Of a DNA stretch of 64,000 nucleotides, positions 7,857 through 64,000 are shown one piece after another. Location of the stretch: NCBI RefSeq assembly GCF_029846175.1, contig NZ_JARWAC010000038.1, positions 1-64,000 of the forward strand, given 5' to 3'. The notes beneath the pieces were generated by a model. It was not told the DNA's origin and did not search any database. It was given only the letters and a program-made list of their open reading frames with translations. The number at the start of each line of letters is the position of its first letter. Positions within the stretch are counted from its first letter, which is position 1. The stretch is from Sphaerisporangium sp. TRM90804 (lineage in GTDB: Bacteria > Actinomycetota > Actinomycetes > Streptosporangiales > Streptosporangiaceae). The position numbers and the translations under genes were made by a program.

Positions 7857-9179
7857 TCAGTCCTCGGCCTTGCCGGGCGGGCCGGTCGTGTAGACGTCCG
7901 GCACGCCGTCGTGGTCGAAGTCGGCCGTCTCGATCTCGTGGATGCGCCGGTAGGTGCGGTTGCGCAGGCGAAGGATCACCGCCGCGATCAGCGCCGCGGC
8001 CAGCGAGCCGGCCAGCACCGCCACCTTGACGTGCTCGCCGCCTTCGACGCCGAAGGCCAGTTCACCGATCAGCAGCGAGACGGTGAACCCGATCCCCGCC
8101 AGCACCGACACCCCGGCCACGTCCACCCAGGCCAGGCCCTCGTCCAGGTCGGCCCGGGTGAAGCGGGCCGTCAGCCAGGTCGCGGCGAGGATACCGATCG
8201 GCTTACCCGCCACCAGGCCCACCACGACCCCCAGTACGACCGGGTCGCCGAAAGCGCTCACCAGGCCGTCCAGCCCGCCCAGGGCCACTCCGGCGGAGAA
8301 GAACGCGAACACCGGCACGGCCATCCCGGCCGAGATGGGGCGGAATCGGTGCTCGAAGTGCTCGGCCAGGCCGGGCCCGGCGTCCGGGCCGCCGGCCCGC
8401 TCACTGCGGACGACCGGCACCGTGAAGGCCAGCAGCACCCCGGCGACGGTGGCGTGCACGCCCGAGGCGTGCACCAGCGCCCAGACCGCGACCGCCAGCG
8501 GCAGCAGCAGCCACCAGGCGCGCACCCGGCGCTGCACCAGCACGGTGAAGGCCGCCAGCGGCGCCAGCGCCGCGGCCAGCGGGAGCGGCGCCAGGGTGTC
8601 GGTGTAGAACAGCGCGATGATGACGATGGCCACCAGGTCGTCCACCACGGCCAGGGTGAGCAGGAAGGTGCGCAACGCGTTCGGCAGGAACCGGCCGATG
8701 ACCGCGAGCACGGCCAGAGCGAAGGCGATGTCGGTGGCGGTGGGGATCGCCCACCCCTTGCCCGCGCCCGCGACGTCCCGGGTGATGAGCAGGTACAGCG
8801 CCGCGGGGAGGATCACCCCGCCGACCGCGGCCGCGATCGGGACCGCGGCCCGCCGCACGTCGCGCAGGTCACCGGCGACGAACTCGCGTTTGAGCTCCAG
8901 CCCGGCCACGAAGAAGAAGATCGCCAGCAGGCCGTCGCCGGCCCAGCCGGCCAGGGAGAGGTTCAGATGCAGCACCTCGGGCCCGACACGCAGATCGCGC
9001 AGCGACTCGTAGGCTTCGGCCCACGGGGAGTTGGCCCAGATCATCGCCGCCACCGCGGCGACCAGCAGCAACGCCCCTCCGACGGTCTCCTTGCGCAGGA
9101 TGCCGGCGATGCGGCGAGCCTCGCTCCATGATCCCCGGCCAAGCAGGACGGGACGGCGCGGCGGAACAGGGTGCGTCAT
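7857..9179 (-). CDS. nhaA: Na+/H+ antiporter NhaA
   Basis: This 440-residue, 12-helix membrane protein exchanges cytoplasmic Na+ or Li+ for external H+. The discontinuous-helix motif TATDIAFAL is at 147-155 and the paired ion-binding aspartates are in [10 protein letters not shown] (D180, D181). [14 protein letters not shown] at 87-100 is also typical. The C-terminal tail ends with [11 protein letters not shown], which resembles an acidic D-x-D-x-D-G calcium-loop. ATG 9179 is preceded by CGGAGA. It is the first of four different cation exporters in 7 kb, and the only one whose leader lacks a clear copy of the repeated leader element. Confidence 0.95.
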
Positions 9180-9341: not shown

Positions 9342-10121
9342 TCATCGGGTGTGGTCGGCGCGGTTCCACCAGACGGCGGTGGTGATGGCGCCGGTGACGC
9401 CGGTGGCCGCGACCAGCGCGAGCCCGGCCAGGCCGGGCGGGTCCTGGCCGGGGCCGGCGATCCCGGCGAACAGGCCGGGCACCGACCAGGGGAAGACGGC
9501 GCCGTAACCGAGTGCGGCGATGACCTGGGAGGTGAACACGATGGCGAACAGGACGCCGACGGCCGCCAGGTAGCCGCGGCCGACGCTGGCGGCCAGGGCC
9601 AGCGGTGCGGCGGTCAGCGCGGCCAGCGCGGCGGCGGCCATGATGCGCCCACTGCCCTGCACCGCGCCCGGCGCCGACCAGCCGGGCAGAGCGAGCAGGG
9701 CGCCGATCAGCAGGCCGAGCCCGGTGAGCAGGAGGGCCAGCAGCAGTGCCCAGATCGCGCCGATGGTGAACTTGGCGGCCACGACGGCGGTGCGGGAGGT
9801 GGGCAGGGCGAGCAGGTCGGTGGCGGTGCGGTCGCTGAACTCGCGGCCGAACAGCCAGACGACGATCAGCCCGTAGACGCCCAGGCCGCCCACCGCGGCG
9901 GCCTGGGCGAGCAGGGCGAGATAGCCGGGCCAGTCGGCGCCGGCACCGGAGATCTCGGCCTTGCCGCCAAGGAGGCCGAAGGCCCGGGCACGGGCGGGGT
10001 CGGCCAGGATGAACATGAACATCCCGCACACCAGCGTGGCCACGCCGAAGGCCAGCGCGGTCACCCAGGGCAGGCGGCTTCGCCGCGCCTTCAGCAGTTC
10101 CGCCCACAGCGCCTCACGCAT
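9342..10121 (-). CDS. ABC-2 type permease of an exporter
   Basis: This 259-residue protein has about six membrane segments and the layout of ABC-2 permeases: an N-terminal cytoplasmic helix (REALWAELLKARRSRLPW), TM1, a lumenal stretch, then paired helices. It pairs with the ATPase encoded just upstream, whose 3' end overlaps this start by 8 bp, so the two are co-translated. The substrate is unknown. Its position among Na+/H+ antiporters and the shared leader element make a NatAB-like cation exporter a reasonable hypothesis; lantibiotic or drug export is the alternative. Confidence 0.8.
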   Translation of the reverse strand: MREALWAELLKARRSRLPWVTALAFGVATLVCGMFMFILADPARARAFGLLGGKAEISGAGADWPGYLALLAQAAAVGGLGVYGLIVVWLFGREFSDRTATDLLALPTSRTAVVAAKFTIGAIWALLLALLLTGLGLLIGALLALPGWSAPGAVQGSGRIMAAAALAALTAAPLALAASVGRGYLAAVGVLFAIVFTSQVIAALGYGAVFPWSVPGLFAGIAGPGQDPPGLAGLALVAATGVTGAITTAVWWNRADHTR

Positions 10122-11112
10122 CCCCGGCCCCCGTCCCAGTGCCTGGGTAGGTCCCCGTGCCGGCTTCGGGGCCGGTCTTCCGGCTCGATCCGACCGTGCG
10201 CAGGAAGAAGGCTTCGAGGTCCTCTTCTTGCAGGTGGAGGTCGGTGGGTGGCACCCCGCCGTGCACGAGCGCGGTGGCGACCCGCTCCGGTTGGGCGAGG
10301 GCGCGCTCGTCGGTGAGCAGCAGGCCGGCCGGCGTGGCAGGTTCGGGGTGGTAGCCGTGTGCGCGGAGCACCGCGTGGGCGGCGGCGTCGTCGTGGGTGG
10401 CCAGGCGCAGGTGGCGGCGACGGTGCCGGTCCAGTTGGCCGGCGTCGTGTTCGCCGACCAGCCGGCCGTCGTGCATGATGCCGATGCGGGTGGCCAGGCG
10501 GGCGACCTCGGCCAGCAGGTGGCTGGACAGGAACACGGTGGTGCCGTGCTGGTGGGCCAGGTCGGCGAGCAGGGCGCGGATCTCGGCGACGCCGGCGGGG
10601 TCCAGGCCGTTGACGGGTTCGTCGAGGACGAGCAGGGCGGGGGTGTGCAGCAGGGCCCTGGCCAGGGCCAGGCGTTGCAGGTTGCCGAGTGACAGGGTGC
10701 GGGCGCGGCGCTCGGCGTAGGGGGTGAGCGCCAGCCGTTCGATGACGTCGTCGGAGGTGCCGGGCAGGCGGCGCAGGCGGCGGGCCACGTCCAGGTTCTC
10801 GCGCACGGTCAGCTCGGGGTAGGCGGCGGCCGCCTCCACCAGGTAGCCCACTCTCCCCCAGGCGGCGCGGTCGCCGGCCGAGACGGCGGCGCCGAGGACG
10901 CGCACCGTCCCCGCGGTGGGTGCGATCATGCCGAGCAGCAGGCGGATCAGGGTCGTCTTGCCTGCGCCGTTGAGGCCGAGCAGGGCGTAGATCTGTCCTG
11001 CCCGAACCTGCAGGGTGACGTCGTCGACGGCCGCCACGTCGCGATAGCGCTTGCCGAGATGGACGATCTCGATGACCGGCATCGCCGCGTCACGGAGCGG
11101 ACGGTTGGTCAT
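10114..11112 (-). CDS. ABC exporter ATP-binding protein
   Basis: With the start at ATG 11112 the product is 332 residues. Walker A (GLNGAGKT) is at 46-53, Walker B is LLVLDEP and the switch His is in VFLSSHLL. The signature loop is LSLGN rather than LSGGQ, which is common in the DrrA/CcmA/NatA group. The start is uncertain: ATG 11082 gives MPVIEIVHL directly at the domain, while ATG 11112 overlaps the stop of a 22-codon leader ORF as ATGA. None has a classical ribosome site, which favours coupled initiation at 11112. The gene is preceded by leader element A. Confidence 0.8.
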   Translation of the reverse strand: MTNRPLRDAAMPVIEIVHLGKRYRDVAAVDDVTLQVRAGQIYALLGLNGAGKTTLIRLLLGMIAPTAGTVRVLGAAVSAGDRAAWGRVGYLVEAAAAYPELTVRENLDVARRLRRLPGTSDDVIERLALTPYAERRARTLSLGNLQRLALARALLHTPALLVLDEPVNGLDPAGVAEIRALLADLAHQHGTTVFLSSHLLAEVARLATRIGIMHDGRLVGEHDAGQLDRHRRRHLRLATHDDAAAHAVLRAHGYHPEPATPAGLLLTDERALAQPERVATALVHGGVPPTDLHLQEEDLEAFFLRTVGSSRKTGPEAGTGTYPGTGTGAGDA

Positions 11113-11177
11113 GACAGGCAGCGCAGGCGCGGATGCGGGATCATCAGGGCCTGGGACTCGGGGTTGCGGGGGCGCAC
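11109..11177 (-). CDS. Possible 22-residue leader ORF coupled to the ABC ATPase
   Basis: GTG 11177 follows AAGGA with a 6-nt gap, and the frame closes at TGA 11111-11109, overlapping ATG 11112 as ATGA. This provides the ribosome site that the ATPase gene itself lacks. The peptide has several Arg and Pro residues and no membrane segment. It may serve only to deliver ribosomes. The AAGGATGTGC string at its start is also found before the CBS gene at 13081. Confidence 0.35.
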   Translation of the reverse strand: MRPRNPESQALMIPHPRLRCLS

Positions 11178-11203
11178 GGCACATCCTTCACTCGACGCGG
11201 AGT

Positions 11204-11240
11204 GGACGTGCCGACCAGGCTTCCCGGCTCACCTGGTGCC
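11204..11240 (-). ncRNA. Leader element A (repeated 5'-UTR element, upstream of ABC exporter)
   Basis: On the minus strand this reads GGTGA then GCCGGGAAGCCTGGTCGGCA (core 11228-11209), one base different from copies B and C. Outer arms ACCAGG and CCTGGT can pair around the GCCGGGAAG segment, while GCCG can pair with the downstream CGGC, so a pseudoknot or alternative hairpins are possible. A TAGGCT -10-like hexamer ends 13 nt upstream (11247-11242), placing the element at the very 5' end of the transcript. It belongs to no RNA family I can name with confidence. Confidence 0.6.
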
Positions 11241-11345
11241 CAGCCTATCCCCATCGGCCTGCGCCGGACAGCGCTTCCGCCTTCTCACACCGCCGTCCCC
11301 GCGGCCGGCACGACATCCCGCGCCGGCCCGGACGGCCGTCCACGG

Positions 11346-12638
11346 TCACAGGAGATAGCGCAGCCACAGGTACGGGGCGACCATCGGGACGGTGACCGCG
11401 GTGACGATCAGGCCGTACTTGGTGAACTGCCAGAAGCTGATCGGGGTGCCGTTACGGGCGGCGATGCCGAGGATGACCACGTTGGCGGCGGCGCCGACGG
11501 CGGTGGCGTTGCCGCCGAGGTCGGCGCCGAAGGCCAGCGCCCACCACAGCACCTGTCCCTGCCCGGCACCGCCGGTGGACTGCACCAGTTGCTCGACGAT
11601 CGGGCTCATCGTGGCGACGTAGGGGATGTTGTCCACGATGGCCGACAGTACGGCGGAGCCTCCCAGCAACCCCATGGTGGTCAGCTCCAGCCGCCCGTCG
11701 GTGCCGGCGACGGCGGCCTGGGACAGCCGGCCGATGACGCCGGTCTCGACCAGGGCGCCGACCATGACGAACAGGCCGGCGAAGAACACCAGCGTGGGCC
11801 ATTCCACCTCGGCGATGGCGTCGGAGGTGGTCACCCTGGTCGCGGCGACCAGCAGGCCCCCGCCCAGCAGAGCGACCACCGACGGCTCGTAGTGCAGCAC
11901 CGGGTGCAGCACGAACGCGGCCATGACGATCACCAGCACGGCCAGCGACTGCCAGAGCAGCCGCCGGTCCTCGATCGCCTCCTTCTCCTCCAGTTCCATG
12001 ATCGACGCGGCCCGTTCCGGGTCGTAGCGGAACGAGCGGCCGAACATCAGCCAGCACAACCCGATGAACACCACCATCAGCACGATGACCATCGGCGCCA
12101 TGTGGATGAGGAAGTCGTTGAAACTCAGCCCGCCCCGGCTGGCGATGATGATGTTGGGTGGGTCGCCGACAAGGGTGGCGGCGCCGCCGATGTTGGAGGC
12201 CAGCGCCTCGGCGATCAGAAACGGCGCGACGTTGACGGCCAGCCGCTCGCACACCAGGAGCGTCACCGGCGCGATCAGGAGCACCGTGGTGACGTTGTCG
12301 AGCAGCGCGGACGCCGCCGCGGTGATGAGCACCAGCAGCACCATCAGCCGGAACGGCCGGCCCCGGGCGCGTTTGGCGGCCCAGATGGCCAGATACTCGA
12401 AGACGCCGGTCTGTTTCAGCACCCCCACGATGATCATCATGCCGAGCAGCAGGAAGATGACGTTCCAGTCGATCCCGGACTGCTCGGAGAAGAACGCCGC
12501 CTGCGCGCCGGTGGCGTGGATCAGCAGCATGATCCCCGCACCGCCCAGCGCGGCCGCGACGCGGTGAACCTTCTCGGTGGCGATCAGCGTGTAGGCGGCC
12601 AGGAACACCGCCACGCTCATCCACGACAGAACGCTCAC
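11346..12638 (-). CDS. ArsB/NhaD-type ion permease
   Basis: This 430-residue membrane protein with about 11-12 helices belongs to the ion transporter superfamily that includes ArsB, NhaD and SLC13. The diagnostic motif ASNIGGAATLVGDPPNIIIAS is in the first half, with ALLDNVTTVLLIAPVT before it. The inverted second half repeats it as SAIVDNIPYVAT and GADLGGNATAVGAAANVV. NhaD members exchange Na+ for H+ and ArsB members export arsenite; the cation island favours the former. GTG 12638 overlaps the TGA of the upstream CBS gene (GTGA), so both are translated together under leader element B. Confidence 0.85.
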   Translation of the reverse strand: MSVLSWMSVAVFLAAYTLIATEKVHRVAAALGGAGIMLLIHATGAQAAFFSEQSGIDWNVIFLLLGMMIIVGVLKQTGVFEYLAIWAAKRARGRPFRLMVLLVLITAAASALLDNVTTVLLIAPVTLLVCERLAVNVAPFLIAEALASNIGGAATLVGDPPNIIIASRGGLSFNDFLIHMAPMVIVLMVVFIGLCWLMFGRSFRYDPERAASIMELEEKEAIEDRRLLWQSLAVLVIVMAAFVLHPVLHYEPSVVALLGGGLLVAATRVTTSDAIAEVEWPTLVFFAGLFVMVGALVETGVIGRLSQAAVAGTDGRLELTTMGLLGGSAVLSAIVDNIPYVATMSPIVEQLVQSTGGAGQGQVLWWALAFGADLGGNATAVGAAANVVILGIAARNGTPISFWQFTKYGLIVTAVTVPMVAPYLWLRYLL

Positions 12639-13081
12639 GTCGCGAGCATCCGGTCCAGCAGCGCCTGCAGCGTGACCGCCCCTGTCAACCGGCGGTCGTC
12701 GCCGAGCACGGCGACCAGCGGGCTGCGTGTGCGGGCCATCAGCGCGGCCAGCTCCAGCACGGTGGCGTCGAGGTCGGTGACCGGCAGCTCGCGCCGCTGC
12801 CGCGGCAGGGCCTCGCGCACGGTGCGGCCGTTCAGGGCGTCCAGGAAGGCGTCGGCGTGCGCCTCGTCCACCACCCTGGCCAGCGCCGGGTCGTCTTGGC
12901 AGTAGGTGGGCACGGCCAGCCGCAGCACCTCGGTGCCGGGCAGGATCGTGAACGGCGAACCGTCGTCCCCGACCACGATGATGCCGGGCAGGTCCTGCTC
13001 GGCCAGCATCCTGGCCGCGTCGATCACCGGCGAGTCGAGACCGACCACGGGAAAGTCGGCAAGCAGGTCACGGGCGCGCAT
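12635..13081 (-). CDS. CBS-domain pair protein
   Basis: This 148-residue protein consists of two CBS motifs (about 5-60 and 85-145) and nothing else. Its coupling to an ion permease suggests a nucleotide- or second-messenger-sensing regulatory subunit of that transporter, as CBS pairs do for many channels and carriers; this is inference. The start is ATG 13081: AAGGA lies 8 nt upstream, whereas an in-frame ATG at 13090 would overlap the ribosome site. Leader element B ends about 32 nt before the start. Confidence 0.8.
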   Translation of the reverse strand: MRARDLLADFPVVGLDSPVIDAARMLAEQDLPGIIVVGDDGSPFTILPGTEVLRLAVPTYCQDDPALARVVDEAHADAFLDALNGRTVREALPRQRRELPVTDLDATVLELAALMARTRSPLVAVLGDDRRLTGAVTLQALLDRMLAT

Positions 13082-13107
13082 AGAGCACATCCTTCGGACG
13101 ATGGGAC

Positions 13108-13140
13108 CAAGGTGCCGACCAGACTTCCCGGCACCTGCGG
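13108..13140 (-). ncRNA. Leader element B (upstream of CBS-permease operon)
   Basis: The core GCCGGGAAGTCTGGTCGGCA (13132-13113, minus) is identical to copy C. Here AGGTGCCG (13136-13129) and CGGCACCT (13117-13110) form a perfect 8-bp stem around an 11-nt loop. A TACAGT -10-like hexamer lies at 13157-13152, so the element begins within roughly 20 nt of the expected transcription start. The short GAAGGATGTGC string downstream is shared with leader A. Confidence 0.6.
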
Positions 13141-13314
13141 ACGACGCGTGGACTGTACGGGGCCGGCCTGCCTCGCACTCGCGGCAGCCCGTTCAGCCTG
13201 CGGCGGAAGGCGCGCGAGCGAGTCTCCCGCCTGCGAGCGGGCAGCCCGCACGATCGGGAGCCCGTGCGCTCGTGCGTTGCCACCGCAGCGCGACCGATGA
13301 GCCGGCGGGCAGGG

Positions 13315-14550
13315 TCACGCCGGGGCATCGGTCGCTCCGCCTCTCAGCCGGGTCCGGATCCGGCGGGCCGCGCCGTGCCAGGCGGGTGTGTCGCGCTCGT
13401 CGTCGAACCAGCGGGCCACCACGACGTCGGTGGAGGAGTGCAGCAGGATCGAGGCCACGATGGTCACGGCGACCAGGGTGAACACCTGTTGGGCCGCGGT
13501 GATGGCGGAGTTGAGCACGATCAGGGCGTAGACGACCGAGGCGAAGCCCTTGGGGCCGAACCACATCACGGCCGCCACCTCCCGTGGGCCGAGCCCGGAG
13601 CGCAGGAAGGACAGCCAGATGGCCAGCGGGCGGGCCAGCACCAGGGCCAGGATCGCGAACAGCCAGCCCCGCCAGCCCACCGAGGCCAGCAGGGCCGGGG
13701 AGATGAGCGCGCCGAAGACCAGCAGGGCGGCCAGTTTGAGCAACTCGGCGATGAGCTCGCCGAACTGTTCGAAGGATTCGCGCTGGCGTTCGCCGAAGGT
13801 CGCCACGGTGATCCCAGCGGAGAAGGCGGCGAGGAACAGGTTGCCGTGGGTGGCCTTGCCCAGGGCCAGCACCAGCAGGCCGATGGCCACGGCGTTGAGC
13901 GGCTCGTAGTGGTGGGAGGCGGAGAACCAGCGGGTGCGCTCCAGCATGATGGCCGCCCACGGCACCGCGACGCCGATCAGCACTCCCAGGCCCAGTTCCA
14001 GGCTCAGCTCGCCCAGGTGCAGGTCGGCCGACCCGGCCGCGACGGCGAGGAACACCATGACGAACGGCAGCGCCAGGCCGTCGTTGACGCCGGACTCCAC
14101 GTTCAGCAGCTGACGCAGCCGAGGGGGCACCCGCTCGTTGCCGACCAGCGCGGCGGCGAACACCGGGTCGGTGGGTGCCAGGATCGCCCCGATGAGCAGC
14201 GACTCGACCCAGCCCAGCCCGATGACATAGTGCGCCGCCAGCGCGGTGATGACCAGGGTGAGCGGCAGACCCCAGCCCAGGGCCCGGCCGGGCAGCCGCC
14301 AGGCGCTGCGCAGGTCGGCCCAGCCGACCCGCATGCCGTCGGTGAACAGCACCGCGAACAGCGCCAGCTCGGCCAGCGTGCCCACCACCGGATCGCCGGG
14401 TGTCAGCGGGATGAGCCCGCTGACACCGTCACCCAGGACGAACCCCGCCAGCAGGAACAGCGCCGCGGTCGACAAAATCGTCCGGTTCGCCAGGCTGGAT
14501 ACCAGGACCGCCAGCAGCAACAACGCGGAGAAGGCGAGCAGCAGGTTCAT
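13315..14550 (-). CDS. CPA1-type Na+/H+ antiporter (NhaP-like)
   Basis: This 411-residue protein has 12-13 membrane segments. ILAPTDPVFAAALV and NVESGVNDGLALPF are the paired ion-binding motifs of CPA1/NhaP antiporters (TDP and ND). It exchanges Na+ or K+ for H+ across the cytoplasmic membrane. ATG 14550 has GGAG 10 nt upstream; an in-frame extension to 14622 would run through leader element C, so the short form is chosen. It is a single-gene unit preceded by element C and followed by a 224-bp gap holding element B. Confidence 0.9.
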   Translation of the reverse strand: MNLLLAFSALLLLAVLVSSLANRTILSTAALFLLAGFVLGDGVSGLIPLTPGDPVVGTLAELALFAVLFTDGMRVGWADLRSAWRLPGRALGWGLPLTLVITALAAHYVIGLGWVESLLIGAILAPTDPVFAAALVGNERVPPRLRQLLNVESGVNDGLALPFVMVFLAVAAGSADLHLGELSLELGLGVLIGVAVPWAAIMLERTRWFSASHHYEPLNAVAIGLLVLALGKATHGNLFLAAFSAGITVATFGERQRESFEQFGELIAELLKLAALLVFGALISPALLASVGWRGWLFAILALVLARPLAIWLSFLRSGLGPREVAAVMWFGPKGFASVVYALIVLNSAITAAQQVFTLVAVTIVASILLHSSTDVVVARWFDDERDTPAWHGAARRIRTRLRGGATDAPA

Positions 14551-14585
14551 CGGCGGGCTCCGGTCCGGTGGCGGGACGTGCGGTA

Positions 14586-14622
14586 AGAACTGCCGACCAG
14601 ACTTCCCGGCGCACCGTCGCAC
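14586..14622 (-). ncRNA. Leader element C (upstream of NhaP-like antiporter)
   Basis: The core (14610-14591, minus) is identical over 20 nt to element B and differs by one base from element A. GGTGC precedes it, as GGTG does in the other copies. GCCG/CGGC can close an 11-nt loop, or CCGG/CTGG can pair around GAAGT. A TAGGGT -10-like hexamer is at 14628-14623, 12 nt upstream. The start codon is 40 nt downstream. Confidence 0.6.
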
Positions 14623-14728
14623 ACCCTAACAACCCCACAGAACCGCCGATACCCGCGCCTATGGGAAAGTCGCCGATCTCCGGACCCCCCGGCCCACGAG
14701 AGATCGGATCCGGCCCGGGTGGGATCGT

Positions 14729-25440: not shown

Positions 25441-26367
25441 CCCGCCAATGTATCCACCCCCGGGGCACGGCCCTCACCCCGCTCCACCGCGGGCCGCCGC
25501 ACGACGGCGCCGCCTTCGCCGTACCGGGACCCGCCGCATCGGCGCCGGCGGGAGGGTTCCGGACGCGGGACGAGAAGAGGCCCGCCCCAGGGGCGGCACT
25601 CACCCCACCGCCCGGCAGCCGCCCGGCCCCGTCCACCTGCGGAACCCACGACGCCCCGGCCCGAGGCGGCCGGGCAAGAAGGGGGCGAGACGGCGTCCTC
25701 GGCGGGTCCAGAGTCGGGCGGTGCCGTAACGGTCCGGGCATGGGCAGGCGGGGGATGTCGCCGGCCCGGCGCCGAAGCCATGAGCGGGTGTGGGAGTCGG
25801 CCGCGCCGTTCCCAGGTCGGGCGGTGCCGTGCGGTCCGGGCATGGGCGGGCCGGAGATGTCGCCGGTCCCGGCGCGGGAGGTGCGAGCGATGAGCGGGTG
25901 GGAGTCGGCCGCGCCGTTCCAGGGGCTGTTGGTGCCGTGCGGTCCGGGCATGGGGGCCGGGGATGTCGCCGGCCCGGCGCCGAAGCGATGAGCCGGGGGA
26001 GCCAGCCGCGCCGTTCCCAGGTCGGGCGGTGCCGTGCGGTCCGGGCATGGGCGGGCCGGAGATGTCGCCGGCCCCGGCGCCGGAGGTGCGAGCGATGAGC
26101 GGGTGGGAGCCGGCCGCGCCGTTCCAGGGGCGGGCGGTGCCGTGCGGTCCGGGCATCTGCCAGCCGGAGATGGCGCCGGCCCGGCGCCGAAGCGATGAGC
26201 CGGGGGGAGCCGGTCGCGCCGTTCCAGGGGGCGGGCGGTGCCGTGGGGTCGTTCGTGCGCGTGGGCTGTGGCGCCGGGGGTTCGGCGGCTGGGGAGGAGG
26301 GGCGCCTGGGGGTGGGAAGGGGGGTGAGGCGGTGACCTCGGTGGGGGAATGCTGGAAGGATGGGCGC
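25441..26367. other. Gene-free divergent intergenic stretch
   Basis: No gene is supported in these 927 bp. Open frames exist on both strands only because stop codons are rare at this G+C; they are Arg/Pro-rich and shift frame from one repeat copy to the next. The left 265 bp show no recognisable signal beyond whatever promoter serves the M24 gene. The middle is the tandem array described separately. The right end carries the GGAAGGA ribosome site of the exonuclease gene. Confidence 0.6.
25706..26250. repeat. Six-copy, about 103-bp tandem repeat with alternating A/B units
   Basis: The anchor GGTGCCGTGCGGTCCGGGCA recurs (exactly or with small changes) at about 25719, 25822, 25930, 26027, 26135 and 26236, with gaps of 103, 108, 97, 108 and 101 bp. 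Copies alternate: after units 1, 3 and 5 the text runs GGCGCCGAAGC-ATGAGC, after units 2 and 4 it runs GGAGGTGCGAGCGATGAGC. The real period is thus a dimer of about 205-210 bp. The spacings are not multiples of three, so a repeated protein is excluded. Confidence 0.85.
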
Positions 26368-61595: not shown

Positions 61596-64000
61596 ATGCC
61601 GATGTGGCCGTTCGCGGGCCGCCAGGACGACCTGGCCCGGCTGATCCGGCTCGCCCACGACGGCGCGGCCCGCGGGATCGTCATCGCGGGGCCGTCCGGG
61701 GTGGGCAAGACGAGGCTGGCCGCCGAGGTGCTGCGCACGTTCCGGCCCACCTCGCACACGGTGATCGCCATCAGGGCCACCAGCGCGGCCGGCGGCATCC
61801 CCTACGGCGCCCTGGCCGGGCTGCTTCCGCCGGAGGCGCCCGCCGGGCTGGCCAACCCGCTGCGCTGGGCGGCCGACGCCGTCCGGTCGCACGCCGCGGG
61901 CCGCAGGCTCGTGCTCGCGGTCGACGACGCCCACCTGCTCGACGGCGCCTCGGCCGCGGCCGTCCACCACCTGGTCGCCGCCGGGGACGCGCTGGTCGTC
62001 GCGACGCTCCGCACGGGCGAGCCCGCGCCCGACAGCGTCACCGCGCTGTGGCGCGACGGGCCGGCCGCGCGCGCCGACGTCGGGCCGCTCAGCCTGGCCG
62101 ACACCGCGGCGATCCTCGCGGCCGCCCTCGGCGGCAGGCCCGACGACGCCACGGTGCGCAGGCTCGGGACGGCCACCGAGGGCAACGCCCTGCTGCTGCA
62201 CGAGGTGGTCGGCGCCGCCCGTGAGGCCGGGACGCTGCGGCAGGTGCGGGGCATGTGGCAGCTCACCGGGGAGCCGCCCATGGCGCCGCGGCTGACCGAG
62301 CTGGTCCGCGAGCGGGTCGGAGCCCTCTCGCCGGAGGCGCGGGCCGTGCTGGAGCTGACGGCCTTCGGCGAGCCGGTCGGGCTGACCGCGCTGCTGGAGC
62401 TGACCGCGCCCGACGCCGTCGAGCAGGCCGAGGACCGCGGGCTGATCCGCCTGTCCAGGGACGGCCGCCGGGTGGCCGTCCGCCTGGGGCACCCGCTGTA
62501 CGGCGAGGTGGCGCGGGCCGGGTGCCCTCCCCTGCGGCGCCGCAACCGGTACGCCGCGCTGGCCGCGGCGCTGGAGCGCGGCGGCGCCCGGCGCAGGGAC
62601 GACCTGCTGCGGCTCACGGTGTGGCGGCTCGAAAGCGGGGCGCAGGCCTCTCCGGGCCCGCTGCTGTCGGCGTGCGGGCTGGCCTGGTCGGCCCACGACT
62701 ACCCCCTGGCCATCCGCCTCGGGCGCGCGGCCCTTGCCGCGGGCGGCGGCGTCGAGGCGGCCGTCCTGCTGGCCACCGTCCTGGACTACGCCCAGTTCCC
62801 CGACGAGGCCCACAGCGTCCTCATCCAGGCCGAGGCCGCTCTCCCGCCCCCCTCGCGGTCCCCCGCCGGCACCGGAGCCGCCGGGACGCCCGGGCCCGCC
62901 CCGGTGGGCGCCCCAGCCGCCGCCGGGGCCGCCGGCGGGTCCGGCGGGGGCGGCCCGGCCGATCCCCCGGCTTGGAGCGGTCCGAAGGATCGGGAGGGTG
63001 AACCCGGGGACGACGGACCCCCGGGCGAGGAGGGTGAACCTGGGAGTGGCGGAGCTGCGGGCGAGGAGGCTGACCCCGGGGACAGCCGGCCCCCGGGCGA
63101 GGAGGACGACCCCGGGGACGGCGGGCCCATGGGCGAGCAGAGGGGACCCGGGGACGACCGGCCCCCGGGCGAGCAGAGGGAACCCGAGGGCGACCGGCCC
63201 CCGGGCGAGGAGGAGCTGAGGACGCGGCTGGCGCTGGCTCGGGCGGGGAACCTGGCGTGGGGGATGAACCGCCTGCGGGAGGCGCTCGACCTGCTCGACC
63301 GCGCCGAGGCCACGCTCACCGACCCGGCGGCCCGGCGGCAGGTGGCGATGCGACGGCTCGACCTCGCGGCCGCCGCGGCCGAGCCCCGCACCGCCCTGCG
63401 CCTGGGCTCGGCGTTGCTGGGCACGCTCCCGGCGGGGCCCGGGCGCACCCAGATCCTGAAGGCCCACGCCCTCGCCCTGTGTTACGCCGGGCGCACCGGC
63501 GAGGCCGTCTCGGTCGCGCGCCAGGCGCTGGCGGACGCCGGGTCGTGGCAGGACGCCATGCCCGCGATGGTGGCCCCCCTGCACTCGGCGTGGGCCATGG
63601 CCGGGCTCTTCGCCGGCGACCTGGCCGAGATGGAGGCCGCGGTGGCCTCCATGGACGCCGCCGTCGCCGCGCAGCGCGGCTGGTCGCTCGGCGAGGGCAG
63701 CCTGGCGCTGGCCAGGGGCCACCTCGCGACCGCCCGGGGACGGGCGGAGACCGCGCTCGGCGTGCTGCACGACGCCGCGCACCACCCGACGGCGCTCACC
63801 GTGGGCGGGTGCATGGGCGCGTACGCCGCCGCCCAGGCGCTGCTCGGGGACGCCGCGGGCTCGCGGTCCACGCTGGAGGAGGCGCTGTCGCGCAACCGCG
63901 CGACCTGGACCGGGTTCACCCGATGGGTGGCGCTGACCCGCGTGTGGATCGCCGCCGCCTACGGCGAGACCGGCATGGCCGTCGAGCTGGCCCTGGCGTT
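61596..64000 (+). CDS. LAL-type AAA ATPase/LuxR-family regulator (3' end outside window)
   Basis: The frame is open from ATG 61596 to the right edge (801 codons). FAGRQDDLARL is followed by Walker A GPSGVGKT (32-39) and Walker B LVLAVDDAHLL (about 105), then winged-helix and TPR-like helical repeats: the plan of MalT/LAL regulators. The LuxR-type DNA-binding domain would lie beyond the window. Residues 470-541 are six 12-residue Pro/Gly/Glu-rich repeats, preceded by an Ala/Gly-rich linker. GGGAGG lies 5 nt before the ATG. It is divergent from the DUF4145-YbaK gene. Confidence 0.85.
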   Translation, partial: MPMWPFAGRQDDLARLIRLAHDGAARGIVIAGPSGVGKTRLAAEVLRTFRPTSHTVIAIRATSAAGGIPYGALAGLLPPEAPAGLANPLRWAADAVRSHAAGRRLVLAVDDAHLLDGASAAAVHHLVAAGDALVVATLRTGEPAPDSVTALWRDGPAARADVGPLSLADTAAILAAALGGRPDDATVRRLGTATEGNALLLHEVVGAAREAGTLRQVRGMWQLTGEPPMAPRLTELVRERVGALSPEARAVLELTAFGEPVGLTALLELTAPDAVEQAEDRGLIRLSRDGRRVAVRLGHPLYGEVARAGCPPLRRRNRYAALAAALERGGARRRDDLLRLTVWRLESGAQASPGPLLSACGLAWSAHDYPLAIRLGRAALAAGGGVEAAVLLATVLDYAQFPDEAHSVLIQAEAALPPPSRSPAGTGAAGTPGPAPVGAPAAAGAAGGSGGGGPADPPAWSGPKDREGEPGDDGPPGEEGEPGSGGAAGEEADPGDSRPPGEEDDPGDGGPMGEQRGPGDDRPPGEQREPEGDRPPGEEELRTRLALARAGNLAWGMNRLREALDLLDRAEATLTDPAARRQVAMRRLDLAAAAAEPRTALRLGSALLGTLPAGPGRTQILKAHALALCYAGRTGEAVSVARQALADAGSWQDAMPAMVAPLHSAWAMAGLFAGDLAEMEAAVASMDAAVAAQRGWSLGEGSLALARGHLATARGRAETALGVLHDAAHHPTALTVGGCMGAYAAAQALLGDAAGSRSTLEEALSRNRATWTGFTRWVALTRVWIAAAYGETGMAVELALA
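63003..63218 (+). repeat. Six in-frame 36-bp repeats inside the LAL-type gene
   Basis: Six 36-bp units encode PGDDGPPGEEGE, PGSGGAAGEEAD, PGDSRPPGEEDD, PGDGGPMGEQRG, PGDDRPPGEQRE and PEGDRPPGEEEL. The P-G-x2-x-P-P-G-E pattern is collagen-like and highly acidic. Units vary at several positions, so copies have diverged after expansion. Confidence 0.9.

Follow-up and report, generated by a model that had tools for sequence, protein, structure and literature searches.

We analysed a 64,000-nt stretch of Sphaerisporangium sp. TRM90804 (contig NZ_JARWAC010000038.1, positions 1 to 64,000), referred to here as the window, in which a short sequence element recurs upstream of three transporter units. 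A pattern scan placed the 20-mer at 14591-14610, 13113-13132 and 11209-11228, all on the minus strand and with 0, 0 and 1 mismatches, exactly as the original prediction had reported. The chance expectation in the window is 0.05 matches, and three matches were reached in 0/100 dinucleotide shuffles. Sequence comparison shows a structured RNA with compensatory stem changes and a fixed distance to the -10 box. In many Actinomycetota it lies in sense orientation ahead of genes for the transport of monovalent cations and protons.

Three copies of the element in one transporter cluster

All features of the three units lie on the minus strand. Copy A (14592..14615) stands upstream of a gene for a NhaP-like cation/proton antiporter (13315..14550; PF00999, E 3.4e-43). 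It consists of GGTGC followed by GCCG-GGAAGTCTGGT-CGGC, with a C.A flanking pair (14611 / 14591), and its predicted -10 box, TAGGGT (14623..14628), starts 18 nt before the stem. Copy C (11210..11233) consists of GGTGA and GCCG-GGAAGCCTGGT-CGGC, has an A.A flanking pair and follows a predicted -10 box, TAGGCT (11242..11247), that starts 19 nt before the stem. Both boxes were assigned by their letters and by the position rule of relatives. Downstream of copy C lie a gene for an ABC transporter ATP-binding protein (10114..11184; PF00005; start codon uncertain) and an overlapping membrane protein gene (9342..10121), which has no NCBIfam match and is a presumed permease given its position.

Copy B (13114..13137) precedes a CBS-domain protein gene (12635..13090; PF00571; relatives suggest the ATG at 13081 as start) and an ArsB/NhaD-like transporter gene (11346..12638), the latter with weak-to-moderate similarity to MamN, ArsB and NhaD models, all below cut-off. 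This copy is atypical. CAGGT replaces GGNGN, and the GGTG overlaps the element itself (CAGGT-GCC where GGNGN-GCC is usual). The statement that GGTG precedes every copy thus holds for A and C but not for B. Likewise, a TANNNT hexamer had been noted ahead of each copy; those of A and C fit the 17-20 nt seen in relatives, but the TACAGT of copy B (13157-13152) starts 25 nt before the stem. The 8-bp stem described for copy B (AGGTGCCG/CGGCACCT) is real but departs from the general structure of relatives, which mostly carry a non-Watson-Crick U.G or C.A outside a 4-bp stem; the structures originally drawn for copies A and B are not the conserved one.

The source genome holds five copies of the 20-mer at up to one mismatch, three of them in the window. 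The fourth lies 29 nt upstream of the ATG of an nhaA gene (locus L004), and the fifth (locus L003) has a STAS protein as its next recognisable gene; a NhaP remnant suspected by eye after this copy found no support from BLAST in the correct frame. A covariance model built from 64 seeds gave E values of 1.8e-6 for copy A, 2.2e-6 for copy C and 3.8e-4 for copy B, the worst of the five. Two further genomic matches have three mismatches (L006 and L007). The one in L007 (C63, 1501-1519; GCTGGGAACTTTGGTCGGC), where TANNNT lies 17 nt upstream of the stem and the flanking positions are C.A, may be a diverged sixth copy. The promoter of the nhaA gene in L004 is directly preceded by a 34-bp tandem repeat (1301-1414; 3.4 copies, 95% matches). 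Unlike this paralogue, the NhaA gene in the same transporter cluster of the window (7857-9179, minus strand; PF06965) has no element within 250 nt upstream.

A conserved hairpin at the predicted start of the transcript

To describe the anatomy of the element we used 269 non-redundant copies out of 281 with a script score of at least 28. The consensus is GGNGN-GYCG-GGAAGNCUGGU-CGRC, a 4-bp stem closing an 11-nt loop. GG occupies positions -5/-4 in 267/269 copies and G position -2 in 268/269; the loop GGAAGNCUGGU is nearly invariant, in a set whose search patterns selected for loop letters. Alignment columns outside the element show no conservation, and this is the single conserved stem.

In 227/269 copies a TANNNT begins 17-20 nt upstream of the stem, against a background of 34/2421 windows of five positions. 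When copies were aligned on this box, a G was found two nt upstream in 72%, as in an extended -10 promoter. No -35 box emerged in the 269 copies: TTGACA was matched about as well in a control window as in the spacer window. Given the position of the hexamer and the usual spacing between a -10 box and the start, transcription is predicted to begin at the GG of GGNG. The promoter position had been named as a check on the idea, and the sole promoter signal found does lie upstream of the element.

This geometry allows a reading in which the element is no regulatory RNA but a leaderless upstream peptide (GTG NNC CGG GAA GNC TGG TCG GC) whose translation is coupled to that of the downstream gene. 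By eye, the GTG in GGTGN copies does open a frame through the core. However, the third base of the leading GGNGN is A in 35/269 copies and C in 33/269, which removes the start codon, codon third positions hardly vary, and changes in the stem follow pairing. With the start codon lost in some copies and variation that is not codon-like, we rejected this reading as having next to no probability.

Variation in the stem follows base pairing

We assessed the stem by scanning GTDB genomes for matches in which stem position 2 could be any letter but C and position 18 any letter but G, in every combination. At least 120 stretches were found. Among the 121 matches listed, 117 were paired at 2-18 (U-A 108, A-U 7, G-C 2), compared with a mean of 100.6 and a maximum of 108 in 2000 permutations. 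A -10 box accompanied 110/117 of the paired matches and 0/4 of the unpaired ones. Of 80 record titles listed, 79 were Actinomycetota, and the other was the archaeon Halorientalis, one of the four unpaired matches.

A free-stem search of 296 genomes of the class listed about 150 places, and we read the 3' arms at 22 places (20 chosen from the list, mostly for odd 5' arms, plus L232 and L290). All six places with a -10 box pair Watson-Crick at all four positions. Only 1/16 without a box does so (L323, upstream of NhaA); the other 15 do not pair at all four positions, although L327 does if wobble is allowed. Pair 1-19 is U1-A19 in four of the six boxed copies, all before related ABC proteins. As they share one gene family, they may represent a single event. 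Pair 3-17 is changed in one copy (L052).

The two nucleotides next to the stem covary as well: they favour U.G or C.A over Watson-Crick pairs, which are avoided. Among the 269 copies, U.G occurs 133 times (84.7 expected) and C.A 68 times (27.7 expected), while U-A occurs 7 times (57.8 expected) and C-G once (40.6 expected); the remainder are A.A (29), A.G (20) and others (11). U.G and C.A are isosteric wobbles, so that this rule fits an RNA. Covariation among homologues, proposed as a check on the original prediction, is thus present in both the stem pairs and the flanking positions.

We weighed these data against a DNA operator just past the transcription start, to which a dimeric repressor or activator would bind through the paired arms as half-sites. 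The fixed distance to the -10 box would suit such a site, and symmetrical arm changes are expected for it too. Yet the 11 nt between the arms lack symmetry and hardly vary, and the flanking positions obey the U.G / C.A rule and avoid Watson-Crick letters. Orientation is constant as well: before NhaA genes, 36 copies run in sense and a single one, no more than 250 nt from the start, is on the other strand, as the original prediction would have it. Close pairs of copies on opposite strands in the family genomes are divergent in four cases and convergent in none, with one copy per promoter, and 5/5 such pairs at fetched loci are also divergent. Symmetric letters working in either orientation, the mark of a dimer operator, were therefore not found. 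Finally, the leader strand complementary to the element, described below, would have no role in DNA. We consider a DNA operator improbable and the element almost certainly an RNA.

The element is widespread in Actinomycetota

The 19-nt core was found at up to two mismatches in 55/61 sampled genomes of the family and in 97/296 genomes of the phylum. A reversed control pattern was also present in 18/61 of the same family genomes, so the looser matches include noise. The covariance model, applied within the phylum, returned 119 matches in 52/61 sampled family genomes at E up to 0.001, and hits in 101/396 phylum genomes at E up to 0.01. The observation of three copies was in this respect right and understated: the element is widespread and structured.

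Beyond the phylum, plasmid, phage and E. coli collections were scanned with one 33-nt query. It matched 44 of 72,556 plasmids and nothing in the phage and E. coli collections. Among 40 of the 44 plasmid matches listed, 36 were from Actinomycetota; the other four (Azospirillum, Roseomonas and, twice, Variovorax) had E of about 0.9 and lay inside genes. Actinobacterial plasmids (L302-L311 and further records) carry the element with nhaA, with an alpha/beta-hydrolase gene or with a CBS/NhaD/antiporter operon. The association of element and genes on plasmids suggests that the regulated unit moves on mobile DNA.

Genes for cation and proton transport lie downstream

The gene sets are non-random samples, with 120 loci taken from the stem-variant scan. 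NhaA follows 138/196 copies that have a downstream frame. In a set of 307 copies, the main classes downstream were NhaA (148), NhaP types (26), CBS (20), NhaD (10), ABC (9), DUF2254 (9) and MrpA (9), with Kup (4), P450 (2), P-type ATPase (2), TrkH (2), HppA (1) and a permease (1) as minor classes. The other 64 had no match to the 14 reference proteins, some being cut short or low-scoring; they include genes for STAS, flotillin, NfeD, alpha/beta-hydrolase and DUF6653 proteins and a Na+/Ca2+ exchanger.

In the family alone, 36/119 copies precede NhaA. Conversely, a same-strand copy lies 66-156 nt upstream of 36/77 family NhaA genes (4 fragments among the 81 rows being discounted). The element accompanies 34/48 NhaA frames shorter than 590 codons and 2/29 of at least 590 codons, a division that points to two NhaA types under different control.

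Ten of the 44 plasmids, all annotated, were opened. The next gene was nhaA in four, an alpha/beta-hydrolase gene in three (once followed by nhaA) and a STAS gene in one, and two had no useful annotation. Five plasmid records carry a copy 70-76 nt before a match to the CBS, ArsB/NhaD and cation:proton antiporter genes, which in the window are split into two units, each with its own copy. In L311 (NZ_CP108729.1) the annotated STAS start, at 2004, falls inside the element; this start codon is probably misplaced, hiding the leader.

Two repeats elsewhere in the window lie apart from these loci: an array of about 0.5 kb with periods of 205 bp and 108 bp (25707-26250) and a 36-bp tandem repeat of 6.1 copies (62993-63213).

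Predicted pairing of the leader with the hairpin

The motif TCGACC occurs between hairpin and gene in 43/163 leaders, redundant leaders included, compared with 3.2 in mononucleotide shuffles. Its shorter form CGACC occurs in 34/100 leaders and in 13/225 control leaders. Both are complementary to GGUCG of the hairpin. When the stem was barred in partition-function calculations, the 3' half of the element paired with the leader, with 5.1 expected pairs versus 2.55 in shuffles; at least five expected alternative pairs were reached in 137/222 leaders and in 45/222 shuffled ones. This pairing was seen in both stem classes (130 GCCG, 79 GTCG), and the partner lies mostly 4-11 nt upstream of the Shine-Dalgarno sequence. 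A test of longest complements gave a weak signal for loop plus 3' arm (6.42 versus 6.05 in shuffles) and no excess for the 5' arm. Of the three window copies, A and C are predicted to fold better in an alternative form, and B to retain its extended hairpin.

Because the leader strand would pair with the 3' half of the hairpin, the stem and the predicted alternative helix exclude each other. The computed effect on the Shine-Dalgarno sequence was small: imposing the hairpin lowered access to it in 62/222 leaders and raised it in 30/222 (27 and 37 when shuffled), which suggests that the hairpin may be the OFF state. The opposite direction can also be argued, since a helix adjoining the Shine-Dalgarno sequence would be an obstacle to ribosomes in its own right, and an exporter should be ON when its substrate is present.

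A hairpin that simply stabilises the 5' end, or a promoter-escape sequence, in either case with no sensing role, would explain why the element sits at the predicted 5' end. Such a hairpin would have little reason to be bound to one functional gene group, or to be paired with an anti-strand placed before the Shine-Dalgarno sequence, and we regard it as improbable. A cis-acting switch, by comparison, appears highly likely.

Comparison with known RNA families

Searches of Rfam, with the window at gathering score and with the region and two leaders at E up to 10, returned only weak matches to unrelated families, in keeping with the earlier failure to assign a named RNA family. None of 4227 Rfam families matched, in a library for which the presence of the Na+-I (DUF1646) and Li+-II (nhaA-II) models is unconfirmed. 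The covariance model of nhaA-I (RF03057) matched neither the window nor any of 11 genomes (0/11). The element is unreported in the literature searched, queries with the core letters as DNA or RNA included; supplements, preprints, most subscription journals and the 224-motif paper lay outside that search. The guanidine-II (mini-ykkC) riboswitch consists of two very small hairpins with ACGR loops. Our element resembles it in its very small hairpin and short conserved loop, and differs in having one hairpin with an 11-nt loop.

The closest parallels are riboswitches for alkali cations. As described in PMC9337991, the Na+-I riboswitch (DUF1646 motif) lies in the leaders of genes for Na+ transport and related functions and has conserved loop nucleotides and extended stems P1 and P2; it is reported in Firmicutes, Proteobacteria, Acidobacteria and Verrucomicrobia and acts on transcription termination in the tested case. 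The actinobacterial element shares the leader position, as predicted, the Na+-transport genes and the conserved loop, and we propose that it works similarly. Unlike the two-stem Na+-I RNA (PMC9337991), it has one 4-bp stem, belongs to Actinomycetota and has a leader that is probably too short for a terminator. According to PMC9646797, the Li+-I (nhaA-I, RF03057), Na+-II variant and Li+-II (nhaA-II) riboswitches lie most often before nhaA. nhaA-I, which forms stems P1 and P2 and has a model of 55 positions, is larger than our element and of another architecture, although both lie mostly before nhaA; Li+-II was compared by its description in that source (PMC9646797). The dauA motif is, according to PMC11109978, a three-stem junction that includes the Shine-Dalgarno sequence before a STAS gene, with 57 representatives in Streptomyces. 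It and some copies of the element are both actinobacterial leaders before STAS genes; the description of its junction sets the element apart, and shared loci are possible (PMC11109978).

A putative ion-linked riboswitch

The best explanation of these data as a whole, with a probability of roughly 0.6, is that they reveal a cis-acting leader RNA of a new class, probably a minimal riboswitch linked to an ion. The element would make up roughly the first 25 nt of the message: GGNGN, then the 4-bp hairpin with its 11-nt loop. Loop and GGNG may form a binding pocket, whose occupancy would decide between hairpin and alternative helix and hence the efficiency of ribosome initiation. From the genes involved, the signal would most likely be a cytoplasmic alkali cation, Na+ first, and a rise in it would raise expression of the transporter genes. 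The original interpretation is partly supported: the covariation and the upstream TANNNT speak for a small, structured RNA with which cation-transporter transcripts are predicted to begin, and sensing of cations or pH by it is a hypothesis.

Several observations weigh against this explanation. The computed direction (62 leaders with access lowered, 30 raised) conflicts with an ON switch, and the alternative pairing is weak or absent in many leaders (CGACC in only 34/100). Stem variation is limited to three of the four pairs, two of them with few events. Furthermore, 41/77 family NhaA genes, that of the window included, have no element, and STAS, P450, flotillin, NfeD and alpha/beta-hydrolase genes are not obvious Na+ genes.

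The most serious alternative is that the leader binds a protein: an actinobacterial RNA-binding protein would read the hairpin and control translation or decay, with the signal acting on the protein. A small hairpin with an invariant loop is as typical of a protein site as of an aptamer, and the broad gene list, the one spacing and the one orientation would suit it as well. On the other hand, no candidate protein was found, none having been searched for, and the U.G / C.A flanking pair together with GGNG suggests a compact fold, though a protein could read both. We consider this alternative rather unlikely, and favour direct ligand binding, that is, a riboswitch, as probable. Na+ or Li+ as the ligand is plausible at somewhat less than even odds. 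More tentative still is the full proposal of an alkali-cation (Na+/Li+) riboswitch that is some 25 nt long and spread across the phylum, in which the aptamer is the first stretch of the transcript and which would be the missing actinobacterial Na+ sensor.

To our knowledge, no Na+ or pH sensor has been described that governs actinobacterial antiporters of the NhaA type, and none turned up in the literature searched. At about 25 nt, the aptamer would be smaller than any natural aptamer known to us, and this tiny size may explain why motif searches favouring larger structures overlooked it. The molecule is directly testable at this length. Should it bind an ion unaided, it would count as a very small aptamer of natural origin and would serve as a model of how RNA selects alkali cations. 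In conclusion, the element is most likely tied to monovalent cation and proton transport as a new riboswitch-like class, with Na+ sensing as the leading reading suggested by its genes, and a regulon would be defined by this one leader RNA, common to genes for NhaA, NhaP, Mrp, Na+-type pyrophosphatase, Kup and TrkH.

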